From Gordonia sputi NBRC 100414 (GTDB taxonomy: Bacteria > Actinomycetota > Actinomycetes > Mycobacteriales > Mycobacteriaceae): a stretch of DNA of 64,000 nt. The translations under genes and the position numbers were made by a program. Below the pieces are notes generated by a model. It was not told where the DNA came from, did no database searches, and was given only the letters and a program-made list of their open reading frames with translations. Where the stretch lies: positions 1 through 64,000 of the forward strand of contig NZ_BAFC01000042.1 in assembly GCF_000248055.1 (NCBI RefSeq), read 5' to 3'. The stretch's first letter is position 1; each line of letters opens with the position of its first letter. Below are positions 4,644 through 10,752 of this stretch, piece after piece.

Positions 4644-5834
<1,191 letters not shown>

Positions 5835-5905: not shown

Positions 5906-6289
5906 TCATTTTCCTCGGCTCCGCCGGAGGATTCGACGCCGCGCTCGGGGTGGCGACCACAGCCCGGTGTCGATCAGGTGCGCGATGAAACCCTGTGCGT
6001 CATACGAAGATCCGGCCGGAGCTCGTCCGCGTGCCCAGGCGACGAACGCGTCGTCGAACCGCGTGCCGAGCTGTGCACGAACCTGCGGGAGCCGCCGTGC
6101 TGCTTCGCCACATCGCTTGCGCAGCAGGGCATTTTCCGTTGCCTTCAGTCGGTCGACGTCGAATCCCGGGGGAGGTGGCCCGCCCGAGACGAGCGCACTT
6201 ACGAGAGCGCTCTGGCGTTCGGCCAGCGTCGGCCTTCTGTTGGACCGCGATTCGATCGGGTGACATTCGACGGCGTCGTGCGTGTTCAT
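5906..6289 (-). CDS. SCO6045-like partner protein of the DUF692 enzyme
   Basis: This 127-residue protein is the third gene of a minus-strand unit. Its ATG overlaps the stop of the DUF692 enzyme gene (ATGA), so the two are translationally coupled. It is mostly alpha-helical by composition, with conserved-looking segments LAERQSALVSALVSGG near the N-terminus and FDDAFVAWARGR in the middle, ending in a basic tail. It resembles the small proteins encoded after DUF692 genes in actinobacteria (the SCO6044/SCO6045 arrangement). By analogy with MbnC and other MNIO partner proteins it could bind the precursor peptide and present it to the enzyme, but that role is inferred. An upstream ATG at 6316 is less likely because it lacks the coupling. 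Confidence 0.7.
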   Translation of the reverse strand: MNTHDAVECHPIESRSNRRPTLAERQSALVSALVSGGPPPPGFDVDRLKATENALLRKRCGEAARRLPQVRAQLGTRFDDAFVAWARGRAPAGSSYDAQGFIAHLIDTGLWSPPRARRRILRRSRGK

Positions 6290-7137
6290 GATGCGCACTC
6301 CCACGGGTGATTCCACATCGGCCGGTCTACGCCCGCGGCGTCGGCGATGGCATGCAGTTCGTCGACGAGTTCGGTTGCCGGCGGATAGTGCCCGTCACGC
6401 TCGAGCAGGAACGCGCCGGCCCGACCTGTTGCCGCGAGTTGCGTGACCAACGCGAGCACGTCGTCGGGCACCGGGGCGGTGTGGGTGTCGTGGTAGAGCT
6501 CGCCGTCGGATTCGCCGCCCGCCACATGGCAATATGCGATCCGCTCGAGCGGGAGTCGGGCGAGGTCTGAGGAGGGGTCGGAACCCCGATTGGCAGCGCA
6601 CGCATAGACATTCGCGACGTCGACGAGGAGATACACGCCGGTGCGCTCGGCGAGTTCGGCAAGGAACTCGCCGTCGGTGTACTCGTCGTCGGGCCACTCG
6701 ACCAGTGATGCAATGTTCTCCACCGCCAACGGCACGGGCAGGCGGTCCTGTGTGCGGCGGATGTTGTCGGTCAGTGCATCGAGGGCCTCGCGGCTACGTG
6801 GGACGGGGAGAAGATGTCCCGCCTCCACGCCGCCCGCCCGAACGAATGCGATGTGTTCGCTGACCAATGGTGCGTGGAGCGTTTCCGCGCAGCGAGTGAG
6901 TGCTGAGATCCGTTGCGAGGTAACGGGTTCTGCGCCTCCGAGTGAAAGTCCCACTCCATGCGGGATGATCGGGACGTCCAGTGCCATGAGGTCGGGAAGC
7001 CAGGAGTGGGGGTCGTCGAGTGCGGGTACCGACTCCGCGATCACCTCACAGAAGCCGAGACCCGAGAGTTGCGCGACGACCCCGGAGATCTCCGGACGCC
7101 ACCCGATGCCGATCCCGGCGGGCAAGTTGAGTGTCAT
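6286..7137 (-). CDS. DUF692 / MNIO family metalloenzyme
   Basis: This 283-residue protein belongs to the multinuclear non-heme iron oxidase family (MbnB, TglH, DUF692), TIM-barrel enzymes that modify Cys or other residues in ribosomal peptides. It starts GIGIGWRPEIS, as the family does. Likely metal ligands are visible in order: His in PHGVGLSLG, His in SEHIAF, Glu in LAVENIAS, Asp in LLVDVANVY, His in YCHVAGG, the pair in YHDTHTAPV, and Glu in FLLERDG. The ATG has AAGGAG eight bases upstream. It lies between the Cys-tailed membrane protein (49-base gap) and the partner protein (4-nt overlap). The natural substrate is inferred to be the Cys-rich tail of the neighbour. Confidence 0.88.
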   Translation of the reverse strand: MTLNLPAGIGIGWRPEISGVVAQLSGLGFCEVIAESVPALDDPHSWLPDLMALDVPIIPHGVGLSLGGAEPVTSQRISALTRCAETLHAPLVSEHIAFVRAGGVEAGHLLPVPRSREALDALTDNIRRTQDRLPVPLAVENIASLVEWPDDEYTDGEFLAELAERTGVYLLVDVANVYACAANRGSDPSSDLARLPLERIAYCHVAGGESDGELYHDTHTAPVPDDVLALVTQLAATGRAGAFLLERDGHYPPATELVDELHAIADAAGVDRPMWNHPWECAS

Positions 7138-7186
7138 GGGACTGCTCCTTGTCGTGTCGTGATGGCAGTAGGTAGGTGAGACTCGC

Positions 7187-8080
7187 TCACCCGCCGCAGC
7201 CTCCGCCGCCGCCCCCGCAGCTACTCGACGAACCGCAGCTACTCGACGAACCGCAGCTACTCGACGAACCGAAGCCGCCTCCGAAGTCGCCACCTGCACT
7301 CCACGAGCCGCCGAAGTGCCCGGTCGATGCTTTCGCGTTGGCTGCGAAGGGGGGATCGACGAGCTCGACGATGCGGATGCCGAAGAGCGCCACGCCGATC
7401 GCTGCGGCCGTCGGACCATATGTGCGTACGGCAGGCCGTAGTTCAGGTCGGAGATGTCGGTTCCTCGATCGTGCGGCGGCCAATGCCGTGTTGCCGCGGA
7501 TCGTGCGTCGTTCTTGGATGCATGCCACCAGCGGCAGGAACATCAGGTCGGCGAAGAGGAAGGCGAGCAGCAGGCCGGTCGGCTTTCCGTTGCTCAGCCC
7601 CGCGATGACCCGGATCACGCCGACGACCATGACGAGCACCAACGCGAGTCGGGCGCCTCGGGCGGAGGGCGTCGTGAGGTAGCCGCGTGCGCGTAGTTCG
7701 TTGCGTAGGTCGGTGCGGGCCCACCGGGTTGTTCTGGCCACATTGTTGGGCTTTCCCGACTGGTTGCGGAGTGCCTCGAGGATCGTGCGAGACAGTTGAT
7801 CGAGTCGGGACTTCGTGCGCGACGGCGTGGGGGTCGGCCGGCCGTCGGAATCAACGTATCCCTGCGTGAGTAGTTGTGTGAGCGCCGCGAGGTGTGCGTT
7901 GCGATCGGAGACCAGCATGCCGATCTCCGTGGGTGTCAGTCGTTCGATCGGATCGTCGAGGCGGATGCGTCGTGCGCGGTAGATGTCGCAGATCGCCCAG
8001 AGCCAGCATGCAACGGATGTTGTGGCGAAGATGACGAGGAAGACCGGCCCGGAGATTCCCCAGGTGTTCTGACTGTGCAT
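7187..8080 (-). CDS. TIGR04222-type membrane protein with Cys-repeat tail
   Basis: This 297-residue protein has a transmembrane segment at about residues 8-27, a basic cytoplasmic domain to about residue 145 containing a helical LTPTEIGMLVSDRNAHLAAL segment, then three more hydrophobic segments (two near 150-200, one near 225-245). The last 50 residues are Gly/Ser-rich and end in three identical SSSSCG hexamers followed by GGGGGCGG, giving four cysteines. By the positive-inside rule the tail faces outside. The layout matches TIGR04222 membrane proteins, which occur beside DUF692 genes. I infer that it is the substrate, with the tail as a core peptide fused to a membrane anchor. The ATG at 8080 is preferred over GTGs at 8092 and 8089 because AAGGTGG is correctly spaced from it. 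Confidence 0.78.
   Translation of the reverse strand: MHSQNTWGISGPVFLVIFATTSVACWLWAICDIYRARRIRLDDPIERLTPTEIGMLVSDRNAHLAALTQLLTQGYVDSDGRPTPTPSRTKSRLDQLSRTILEALRNQSGKPNNVARTTRWARTDLRNELRARGYLTTPSARGARLALVLVMVVGVIRVIAGLSNGKPTGLLLAFLFADLMFLPLVACIQERRTIRGNTALAAARSRNRHLRPELRPAVRTYGPTAAAIGVALFGIRIVELVDPPFAANAKASTGHFGGSWSAGGDFGGGFGSSSSCGSSSSCGSSSSCGGGGGGCGG
7217..7270 (-). repeat. Three identical 18-bp repeats encoding SSSSCG
   Basis: Three perfect copies (7217-7234, 7235-7252, 7253-7270) inside the 3' end of the membrane-protein gene. Each is six codons, so copy-number changes add or remove one Ser4-Cys-Gly unit without shifting the frame. Confidence 0.95.
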
Positions 8081-8307: not shown

Positions 8308-8370
8308 TCAGAGCTGGGTCACGTCGAGGTGATCGTGTACGTCATCTGTTGTCTCGGTGTCGTTGTTCAT
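8308..8370 (-). CDS. Candidate 20-residue peptide upstream of the MNIO unit
   Basis: An ATG at 8370 is preceded by a near-perfect Shine-Dalgarno sequence (AAGGAGGTGG) and opens a 20-codon frame, MNNDTETTDDVHDH then LDVTQL and TGA. The peptide is acidic, with two His and no Cys. It is on the same strand as the TIGR04222/MNIO genes, 227 bases before them. It could be a leader ORF that controls the downstream genes, a small functional peptide, or a chance frame next to a purine-rich run. The rest of 8081-8543 shows no other gene. Confidence 0.4.
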   Translation of the reverse strand: MNNDTETTDDVHDHLDVTQL

Positions 8371-8487
8371 GACCACCTCCTTCTTTTTGGTATCGAAGAG
8401 CTGTGTGGCGTGGAACGTGCACCGCGCCAGGTCATCTCAGTATCGGGGCGGCGTCGCAAATAGCCACTCCCCGCCGCACTTCGTCAC

Positions 8488-8543: not shown

Positions 8544-9449
8544 TTACACGCCCCACCCGTAGACGTAGTCGGCGAGCCCGGTTCCGTGGGCCGGTGACTG
8601 TCCCGGCAGATTCGGTGTGCTGTTGAGGACGTAGTACGTGTTGGGCGTGCCGGCGTCGATGACGGCGATCGACTGCGTGTACATCGCCTCGCCCTTGGGG
8701 AGTTGCTTGTGGAGAACTCGGAACAGGTTCGGCAGCGAGCCGGTGTACTTCACGACACGGAACTGCGCGCTCGTCTTCGTTTTGTGCGGATCATTCACCG
8801 GGAGGTTGACGTTGGTCGTGGTCCACTTATCAAGGTTCCGCTGCGGATTCTTGATCGCCTTGAGCGCCGACACGGTCGCGGGATTGGCCACCGCGAGGTG
8901 GATGTGAAGCTGATCCTTCCCTCGTGCCTCGGCTGAATTCACGCCAATGGCAAGGGGTTTCGCGGGAACCTTGGTGACCCACTTCTGGGCCTCCGCCCAT
9001 GCGGAGTACCAGAGGTTCAACTGCGAGCCGTCCCACAGGTAGGAGCATTCGATGCCCTTGATGCGATTGGTCGGCACCAGCAGGTAATCGTCGCCGTGCC
9101 CGGGATGATCGCCGCCGAGGCGTATCGCGTAACGCTTGGGGTGCTTCTTGTCGGGTTGGTACTTCGCCGCGGGCGTCACGACGTCGAGGTTGCCGGGCTT
9201 GAACGGCTTGACGCCCGTCTCACCCTTCACGTCGTCCCAGAGTGTGAATCGGGGGTCCGTCTTTCCGGAGTCCGAGTCGAGTCCGCACCCTGCCGGTGGC
9301 GGCGCGACCTTGGGTGCGGCTGTGGCGATGCCGCCTCCGAATGCTGTGCTCATGGCGATCGCCGCACCGATGGCGAGTGCGGCCAGTCGTCGACCCCCGC
9401 ACGCTCGTGGTGTTGTCCGAAACGACGTCGTACGCAGTAGGGGCTTCAT
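8544..9449 (-). CDS. cdh: CDP-diacylglycerol diphosphatase, exported
   Basis: This 301-residue protein matches the CDP-diacylglycerol pyrophosphatase family (Cdh, HIT-like fold), which cleaves CDP-diacylglycerol to phosphatidate and CMP. The signature NSAEARGKDQLHIH is at residues 171-184, with the catalytic-type HIH at 182-184. Other family blocks are DYLLVPTNRIKGIEC (about 121-135) and LWYSAWAEAQ (about 146-155). An N-terminal basic and hydrophobic stretch ending around TATAAPK (residues 42-48) looks like a signal peptide, so it probably acts outside the membrane. It stands alone, divergent from the mycolyltransferase gene. Confidence 0.85.
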   Translation of the reverse strand: MKPLLRTTSFRTTPRACGGRRLAALAIGAAIAMSTAFGGGIATAAPKVAPPPAGCGLDSDSGKTDPRFTLWDDVKGETGVKPFKPGNLDVVTPAAKYQPDKKHPKRYAIRLGGDHPGHGDDYLLVPTNRIKGIECSYLWDGSQLNLWYSAWAEAQKWVTKVPAKPLAIGVNSAEARGKDQLHIHLAVANPATVSALKAIKNPQRNLDKWTTTNVNLPVNDPHKTKTSAQFRVVKYTGSLPNLFRVLHKQLPKGEAMYTQSIAVIDAGTPNTYYVLNSTPNLPGQSPAHGTGLADYVYGWGV

Positions 9450-9786
9450 CTCTGGCCTCTCGCCGATTCAGGTGGTCTTCGACGTCGATGCTGGTGGCCA
9501 TCGGCGTCGAGCGCGGCGGCTCGTGCGGGATCATCGTTCCACGTGCGGGCACGGTCACTACGTGAAAGCGGGCAATTCGTGTCCTGCGTTCGGCAGACGT
9601 AGACGGCGTGGCGCCCCTCTCGACTCGACCGCGACGGCGGCGTCCGAGCTAAGCAAACGAGTAACTCTAATTAACATGAGTCACATCTGCCACTTTGGTA
9701 ACTGCCCGGTCTCAATGTCGGAGACCTGTGGTCACGACGTCCGATTGGCCTGGCATGGGTGCGGGCGGCCGCAATACGGTTCACCG
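9450..9786. other. Divergent intergenic region, no gene seen
   Basis: This 337-base gap separates the divergent cdh and mycolyltransferase genes and should contain both promoters. The only AT-rich island is around 9660-9680 (GTAACTCTAATTAACATG), which includes a -10-like TCTAAT. A short frame-compatible extension of the mycolyltransferase through 9676 lacks signal-peptide character and was not used. No RNA gene recognised. Confidence 0.5.
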
Positions 9787-10752
9787 GTGCGTAAGAGATC
9801 GTGGTGGTCCGTCGTGTCCGTGCGGCGTGTGGTCGTTGTGGTGGTTCTGGTCGCGACGGCGTTGAGCGTCGGGTTGGTCAATGCGGGGTCGGCAAATGCT
9901 GCCTACTTCGGCCGCTTCTATGTCGGTGGCTGCGGGATGCCGGCCACCCCTGTCGACATGTGGACGCGCGCGGGCAATTACAAGACGGTCATCGCGCTCG
10001 ACGGCCTGCGTGCCACCAGCGATATGAGTGGTTGGCGCCACGAGACGCATATCCAGCGGATGGCGGATTCCGGAGTGAACGTCATCCAGCCGGTCGGCGG
10101 CCTCGCGAGCTTCTACTCCGACTGGGAGACCAAGAGCCCGGCGAGCAAGATCGCCTACCGGTACCGCTGGACGTGCCGCCTCGACGGGATCATCCGTGCG
10201 CTCGACGCACGCGGTCTCGCGGTGGGACCGAAACAGAAGTACGCCATGATGGGCATCTCGATGGGCGGCAACGCCGCGATGATCTACGGCGCCTACCACC
10301 GCAACCGCATCTCCGACATCTTCTCGATGTCGGGCTACCTCAACCTCTCCGCGCCGACCATGCGCGAGGCGATTCGCGTCGCCCTCATCGACGCCGGGGT
10401 CGAAGCGGGCGTCGGACCGCTGAGCGCGGACGCGATGTGGGGCCCGCCGTGGAATCCGCGCTGGGAGCGCAACGACCCGCTCGTGCAGCTGCCCAGAATG
10501 CGAGGGATGAAGATCCGCATCGCCTCGGGTTCGGCAACGTGGGGGCGCTACAACACCGACGCGGTCTCGTCGATCAAGGGAACGCCTCTCGAGGTCGCGG
10601 CGCTGGCGCAGACCCGCGCCTTCGAGGTCGCCGCAGCCCTCCAGAAGATCCCCGTCACCACCGACTTCCCGAGTACCGGCACCCACACGTGGGCGTACTG
10701 GGAGGACATGGTCTGGCGGGCCAAGAACAGCAGGTGGTTCCACGACAGGTGA
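9787..10752 (+). CDS. Antigen 85-type mycolyltransferase / esterase, secreted
   Basis: This 321-residue protein is an alpha/beta hydrolase of the antigen 85 (Fbp/Cmt) family, which transfers mycolic acids between trehalose monomycolate, trehalose dimycolate and arabinogalactan. The GTG start at 9787 gives a typical signal peptide: basic RKRSWW, a hydrophobic core, and a likely cut after SANA (residue 39). Ag85 landmarks are LDGLRATSDMSGW (about 71-83), QPVGGLASFYSDW (101-113), the nucleophile elbow GISMGG with Ser158, and the C-terminal HTWAYWED with the catalytic His. It stands alone. The presence of this family points to a mycolic-acid-containing envelope. Whether it is a mycolyltransferase or a diacylglycerol acyltransferase-like paralogue cannot be told. 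Confidence 0.88.
   Translation: MRKRSWWSVVSVRRVVVVVVLVATALSVGLVNAGSANAAYFGRFYVGGCGMPATPVDMWTRAGNYKTVIALDGLRATSDMSGWRHETHIQRMADSGVNVIQPVGGLASFYSDWETKSPASKIAYRYRWTCRLDGIIRALDARGLAVGPKQKYAMMGISMGGNAAMIYGAYHRNRISDIFSMSGYLNLSAPTMREAIRVALIDAGVEAGVGPLSADAMWGPPWNPRWERNDPLVQLPRMRGMKIRIASGSATWGRYNTDAVSSIKGTPLEVAALAQTRAFEVAAALQKIPVTTDFPSTGTHTWAYWEDMVWRAKNSRWFHDR

Follow-up and report, generated by a model that had tools for sequence, protein, structure and literature searches.

A recurrent actinobacterial cassette of a cysteine-tailed TIGR04222 membrane protein, an MNIO enzyme and a DUF2063-type partner: a predicted membrane-anchored MNIO substrate

In the MNIO literature cited here, the products described are peptides and the modification of proteins is only suggested. 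The closest described system is that of Antoine et al. 2025 (PMC12452194), in which MNIO-linked TIGR04222 proteins were named as putative precursors with extracytoplasmic tails; that study found a loose link at the genome level, with 490 of 1372 genomes without an MNIO, and noted PME-type 2 partners. Earlier, a 2016 Pseudonocardia paper had mentioned a TIGR04222 peptide as belonging to a gene cluster labeled 'bacteriocin' (PMC5183585). The MNIO FonBC shows a preference for Cys-Gly and forms 5-thiooxazole (PMC13097082), and HvfB and HvfC joined artificially gave an active fused enzyme (PMC13419390). The first-pass annotation of the DNA described below had implied that the arrangement was new. 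One section of PMC12452194 is devoted to it, and with PMC5183585 this rules out the reading as an undescribed arrangement; the remark that no product had been described is in line with our search of the open-access literature. We therefore present the cassette as a further case of an arrangement predicted in print (PMC12452194), with supporting comparisons added here.

The window, which is the whole stretch of 64,000 nucleotides of Gordonia sputi NBRC 100414 that was analyzed, carries a three-gene cassette on the minus strand (5906..8080) in the order TIGR04222 gene, MNIO gene, partner gene (Table 1). The three genes had been annotated as coupled, the last encoding a small partner, and rechecking the coordinates upheld this: the gap between the TIGR04222 and MNIO genes is 49 bp, and the MNIO and partner genes overlap by 4 bp. 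The PF00756 esterase near the cassette is, we presume, mycolyltransferase-like. Profile searches of the genome yielded one TIGR04222 match and one MNIO match, and the closest relative of the MNIO, from G. jacobaea, shows 91% identity. The cassette is present in five named Gordonia species, and none of the other five Gordonia genomes in our sample of the order has TIGR04222 or MNIO (0/5), which together indicate a patchy distribution in the genus. An Rfam scan of the window at gathering thresholds gave no match.

Table 1. Features of the cassette and its immediate surroundings in the window
Feature	Position	Strand	Evidence
TIGR04222 membrane protein, putative MNIO substrate, 297 aa	7187..8080	-	NCBIfam TIGR04222.1
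Predicted extracytoplasmic Gly/Ser/Cys tail, residues 242-297	7190..7357	-	Alignment, AF2 disorder, charge pattern
18-bp tandem repeat encoding SSSSCG units	7215..7275	-	Tandem Repeats Finder
MNIO (DUF692) enzyme, 283 aa	6286..7137	-	PF05114, nine TglH-type ligands
Partner, DUF2063-type domain, 127 aa	5906..6289	-	hhalign, AF2, fusion in relatives
GATACT, -10-like element upstream of cassette	8439..8444	-	Recurs before first gene in Gordonia and Nocardia loci
Upstream ORF, 20 codons, MNNDTETTDDVHDHLDVTQL	8308-8370	-	Kept in 3/6 Gordonia loci
tuf	4644-5834	+	Named by eye; flanks cassette on one side
CDP-diacylglycerol pyrophosphatase-like gene	8544-9449	-	PF02611; flanks cassette on other side
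PF00756 esterase, near cassette	9781-10752	+	PF00756

The membrane protein scored 100 bits against TIGR04222.1 of NCBIfam, where the curated cut-off is 43, and so belongs to this family. An AlphaFold2 model built from a 43-sequence alignment (mean pLDDT, 83.7) contains candidate membrane helices at residues 11-37, 141-164, 169-188 and about 218-241, a largely helical region separating helices one and two, and a disordered stretch at residues 259-293 (pLDDT below 50). We take the first of these helices to span the membrane. Lysine plus arginine counts are 0 for the N terminus, 19, 1 and 9 for loops 1 to 3, and 1 for the tail, and because of these counts both the N terminus and the tail are placed outside. 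The earlier description of a four-helix membrane protein with SSSSCG repeats thus stands, the helices and topology being predictions. The tail holds cysteines 276, 282, 288 and 295 and ends in CGG; three further cysteines lie within the membrane helices. Its three SSSSCG units correspond to a tandem repeat in the DNA with a period of 18 bp (3.4 copies, 97% matches, score of 115). Among the 43 aligned sequences, G293, G294, C295, G296 and G297 are invariant and C288 is at least 90% conserved. A distant relationship links the body to DUF2207_C, which 30 of the 43 members match at E values up to 1 (best, 1e-7). Longer proteins with TIGR04222 matches below the cut-off end in Gly/Ser stretches without cysteine, mostly in SW or similar, and are taken to be DUF2207. 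At E values up to 1, no bufferin-family match such as DUF2282 was found for the membrane protein in Pfam or NCBIfam, and at 297 aa it is not the small bufferin-family precursor that marks bufferins and captophorins. A structure search against the PDB gave no match at E values up to 0.001.

The enzyme matches PF05114 with an E value of 6.6e-78 (262 bits against a cut-off of 25). Across 141 aligned MNIO sequences, H60, H95, E140, D173, N176, H204, D217, H219 and E246 are invariant, and these correspond, position by position, to the iron ligands of TglH (His71, His107, Glu151, Asp184, Asn187, His216, Asp229, His231 and Glu258; PMC10880893). With 9/9 positions conserved, the full set of metal ligands noted at first reading is borne out. 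The nearest NCBIfam model is BufB, yet the score is below its cut-off (187 versus 310 bits). Some genomes of the order also hold further MNIO genes that have neither a TIGR04222 gene nor a partner gene as a neighbor (L033, L034, L035 and L045).

Searches of Pfam and NCBIfam at E values up to 1 returned nothing for the window partner, and 7 of 59 aligned partners, the window's own not among them, touched DUF2063 (E values up to 10; best, 5.2e-4). When a profile of the 59 partners was compared by hhalign with a set of 23 DUF2063 proteins, taken from the phylum to which the Enterobacter locus among our MNIO loci belongs, the two aligned over 93 collinear columns with a probability of 95 and an E value of 4e-8; two reversed controls gave 0.1 each, and two unrelated pairs gave 0.4 and 0.5. 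The partner aligns to the DUF2063 part only and at 127 aa is too short for an added RRE, so it does not combine DUF2063 with an RRE as PME-type 1 proteins do. It agrees with PME-type 2 in that its gene directly follows the MNIO gene, no Pfam DUF2063 match is found, and hhalign relates it to DUF2063. The AlphaFold2 model of the partner is all-helical (pLDDT, 87); a Foldseek search of the PDB returned nothing at E values up to 0.001, and 3dee (NGO1945) was not among the 44 matches listed. Q26, P40, G42 and K58 are invariant in the aligned partners.

Shortened and fused forms of the partner occur in relatives. The gene is 60 to 74 codons long in 17 Mycolicibacterium or Mycobacterium loci and 8 Tsukamurella loci. 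In a Streptomyces-like genus (g87; this label, like Micromonospora-like for g25 and Pseudonocardiaceae-like for f14, belongs to this analysis), the partner domain is fused to the MNIO protein as its C-terminal portion in all six loci (L235-L240; E values of 2e-23 to 1e-25), which stem from the genus's six MNIO genomes in our sample of the phylum. These fusions were absent from the training set of the partner profile. A natural fusion of this kind is strong evidence that enzyme and partner function jointly. From the trimmed Mycolicibacterium and Tsukamurella forms (60 to 74 aa) and the fused Streptomyces-like forms, a more speculative reading is that DUF2063's first helical hairpin might be all that a minimal partner needs.

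The order of the three genes recurs widely. We compared 150 MNIO loci, excluding two from the window's own genome (L001 and L002); 30 were obtained from TIGR04222 matches, 30 from MNIO matches, 75 by MNIO similarity and 14 by hand, and 1 is the window, a collection that is not random and in which some loci come from the same species and so are not independent. A TIGR04222 gene lies directly upstream of the MNIO gene in 143 of the 150, and 142 of these 143 have a partner downstream, a fraction that is partly circular because the partner profile was built iteratively on the same loci. The full order is therefore found in 142 of 150 loci, which is not chance, and the reading as chance or artifact is ruled out by this conservation. 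Of the named loci retrieved by similarity to the window MNIO alone, 74 of 75 have the three genes; the 74 are all actinobacterial, and the exception is the Enterobacter locus. Five of the 150 have neither TIGR04222 nor partner, and two, L058 (at a contig end) and L193, have a partner and no TIGR04222 match in range. The sole partner-less locus among the 143, L023, has a long run of C and then other sequence after the MNIO gene; by eye, the sequence after this run (L023, 3190-3687) resembles an insertion-element gene. At some loci two, three or four TIGR04222 genes form an array next to a single MNIO gene, and some of these arrays mix tailed and tail-less copies (L192-L195, L036, L049, L057, L060 and L061).

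Among the loci examined (set L063-L137), GATACT precedes the first gene in 5 of the 6 from Gordonia and 27 of the 28 from Nocardia. Its distance to the called start is 196 to 364 bases in the five Gordonia loci, 44 to 75 bases in 26 of the 28 Nocardia loci and 202 in one more. As a -10-like element it is a candidate proposed from its sequence. Between GATACT and the membrane protein gene, in the window and in L063 and L064, sits an ORF of 20 codons that follows a strong ribosome-site-like sequence; it possibly encodes a leader peptide. No palindrome among the top five of each group, taken as potential upstream operators, was shared with another group. In a blastp comparison of neighbors within 5 kb on each side, none beyond the three genes was common to more than three genera, antisense shadows aside. 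The clusters that did span more than three genera overlie the cassette genes on the complementary strand and were taken as such shadows from their strand and position, and one cluster of three genera overlaps the MNIO gene in another frame. Nothing near the cassette was indicative of copper, and a reading as a copper cassette thus receives no support from neighboring genes.

The cysteine tail and the enzyme go together closely at these loci. All 143 TIGR04222 proteins adjacent to an MNIO have two to eight cysteines in their last 60 residues, a count made without a filter on short domain matches or start codons and comprising 134 distinct ends with no exception. In a set of 132 distinct adjacent proteins, which leaves out those with a short domain match or without a usable start codon, CGG at the extreme C terminus is the commonest end (117/132), glycine follows 567 of 641 tail cysteines, and 80 proteins have no cysteine outside the tail, compared with three in the window's protein. 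Paralogs located far from the MNIO gene in the same genomes of one genus keep the body and have a short end without cysteine in 15 of 15 cases; these are the second copies among the matches listed for that genus, with G189's second copy and all third copies falling outside the set. The same was found for the proteins of G203 and G337 (2/2), two genomes of the window's family without an MNIO match. In a midpoint-rooted tree of 131 of 179 sequences, with at most 12 adjacent proteins per group, the G203 and G337 proteins group with 12 MNIO-linked proteins (support, 99/95), and the tail-less proteins require at least two further label changes.

The first-pass annotation had proposed the tail as the substrate of the enzyme. 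The 143 tailed adjacent proteins and the 17 tail-less proteins among 17 checked relatives speak for this proposal, which is drawn from sequence comparison, and the frequent presence of a tail on non-adjacent TIGR04222 copies in the Pseudonocardiaceae-like family f14 speaks against it. Of 45 distinct TIGR04222 proteins not adjacent to an MNIO, 23 are tailed and 22 are not; their genomes hold an MNIO, and the tailed copies could possibly be modified in trans.

Among 397 sampled genomes of the order, counted by hand, TIGR04222 exceeds the cut-off in 174. Of these, 139 also hold an MNIO, another 33 come from family f16, in which the matches are partial, and the other 2 are G203 and G337; with f16 excluded, an MNIO is found in 139 of 141 TIGR04222 genomes. 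Conversely, 7 of the 147 MNIO genomes of the order are without a TIGR04222 match, again by hand count. In the sample of the phylum, which shares four genomes with that of the order (G000, G015, G021 and G060), TIGR04222 exceeds the cut-off in 10 of 246 genomes, and 9 of these 10 have an MNIO, versus 14 of 246 overall. The MNIO-free family f16 is the divergent case: its proteins match the TIGR04222 model only within about positions 9 to 145, and 8 of 28 proteins (L140-L167, from 28 of the 33 genomes) carry two or three cysteines within their final 60 residues, in Gly-rich ends, with the qualification that the ends of L163, possibly cut at a contig end, and L165, with a stop inside the match, may be unreal. 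Such a cysteine tail does not, then, need an MNIO. A tailed protein in genomes without an MNIO had been named beforehand as an observation that would count against the substrate proposal; it is not seen in the near full-length relatives (0/2) and is seen in divergent f16 (8/28).

We infer modification of the tail, its timing, its chemistry and its metal binding as follows. The TIGR04222 protein would insert with its last helix running outward, so that the flexible Gly/Ser tail with its four Cys-Gly units comes to lie outside. The tail would be synthesized last, after the fourth helix, and the MNIO and its DUF2063-type partner, which are taken as cytoplasmic, would act before or during its passage, since cytoplasmic proteins must reach the tail before it crosses unless the tail waits inside. 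The tail cysteines would be oxidized, with 5-thiooxazole or a related heterocycle as the most likely result, and the product would remain attached in the cell envelope, where it would probably bind copper or another soft metal. Modified MNIO peptides have been linked to copper binding in the literature. That the MNIO modifies the tail and that the product stays anchored in the membrane we consider probable from the sequence evidence. Thiooxazole in particular is given somewhat less than an even chance, and copper as the main ligand a slightly lower one. The Cys-Gly dyad of the tails is the one preferred by thiooxazole-forming FonBC, which by analogy would count for modification; the partners in known thiooxazole systems have an RRE and this one does not, which would count against the explanation. 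The cassette could also represent a RiPP class with a polytopic membrane protein as leader and an unreleased product, in which the TIGR04222 body presents the tail, passage follows modification and a brush of metal-binding heterocycles faces outward, a generalization that we regard as unlikely.

Other explanations account for part of these observations. The membrane protein might be a mere carrier, its domain an oversized leader from which the MNIO-modified tail is cut off and released as a peptide. RiPP leaders are usually removed, and the tail does behave as a separable module that is present or absent on the same body, both of which favor release; conservation within 5 kb extends to no gene for a protease or an exporter, and most of the proteins have CGG as their very last residues (117/132), which makes release improbable in our judgment. 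It is likewise quite unlikely that the MNIO and partner act on something else, such as a noncysteine residue or another peptide, and leave the tail cysteines as plain thiols that bind metal or form disulfides. The cysteines in Gly-rich ends of MNIO-free f16 (8/28) fit this explanation, as do the Streptomyces-like loci, where the fusion stands beside a tail-less TIGR04222 protein or none in 5 of 6 cases; it is opposed by the Cys-Gly context of the tail cysteines and by the coupling of tail to enzyme, present in 143 of 143 adjacent proteins versus 0 of 17 that are distant (in one genus) or MNIO-free.

Of those six Streptomyces-like loci, one has a cysteine-tailed TIGR04222 protein, three have a tail-less TIGR04222 neighbor and two have no TIGR04222 match. 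By eye, a cysteine-poor protein of about 250 to 280 aa with a Pro-rich end stands beside the fusion in five of them (L235-L237, L239 and L240), and it might be the substrate there. A Cys-tail frame on the opposite strand in L239, which came up in a screen of L235-L244 for such tails, was taken as chance. Coupling of tail and enzyme would also be accounted for if the tail were a metallochaperone, an iron-delivery or a redox accessory of the MNIO instead of its substrate. The tail is predicted to lie outside, and the MNIO is taken as cytoplasmic from its family, and we know of no precedent for such an accessory; we hold this to be very improbable.

Modification of this tail would mean that integral membrane proteins, too, are substrates of MNIO enzymes, and that a modified cysteine tail is displayed in roughly one-third of the sampled genomes of the order (139/397 by hand count, with an MNIO and an above-cut-off TIGR04222 protein). 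The natural tail-less, enzyme-less relatives offer controls, and the natural enzyme-partner fusion offers a single-protein catalyst. In these respects, the comparisons sharpen the published suggestion into a testable form.

The cassette shares with the clusters described in PMC12452194 the protein families, a precursor gene usually placed before the MNIO gene, Ser/Gly tails with cysteines predicted to be extracytoplasmic, PME-type 2 partners and a mostly actinomycetotal distribution. It differs in partner frequency, predicted there for at least 10% of TIGR04222 clusters, with many seemingly lacking one; here, 142 of the 143 loci, all from a single order, have it. An MNIO-partner fusion occurs here in the Streptomyces-like genus, whereas the main-text passages of PMC12452194 on fusions name none, and tail presence was compared here with enzyme presence, a test not found in that paper's passages on this arrangement. 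The oxazolin and fontiphorin (captophorin) MNIO-PME1 clusters HvfABC and FonABC (PMC13419390 and PMC13097082) likewise have repeated Cys-Gly units and an MNIO with a required partner of the DUF2063 kind. Their precursors, however, are peptides with EGKCG repeats, with a signal peptide in HvfA, unlike the TIGR04222 protein, and their partners carry an RRE domain, which the cassette partner does not, with DoxX genes often nearby. DUF2207 membrane proteins (PF20990) have a distantly related body and, judging from the longer proteins taken to be DUF2207, Gly/Ser ends that differ in being free of cysteine. The MerC-bufferin fusions described in PMC12452194 are likewise polytopic membrane proteins with a C-terminal MNIO-target domain predicted to be periplasmic, but are made of Bufferin and MerC domains rather than TIGR04222.
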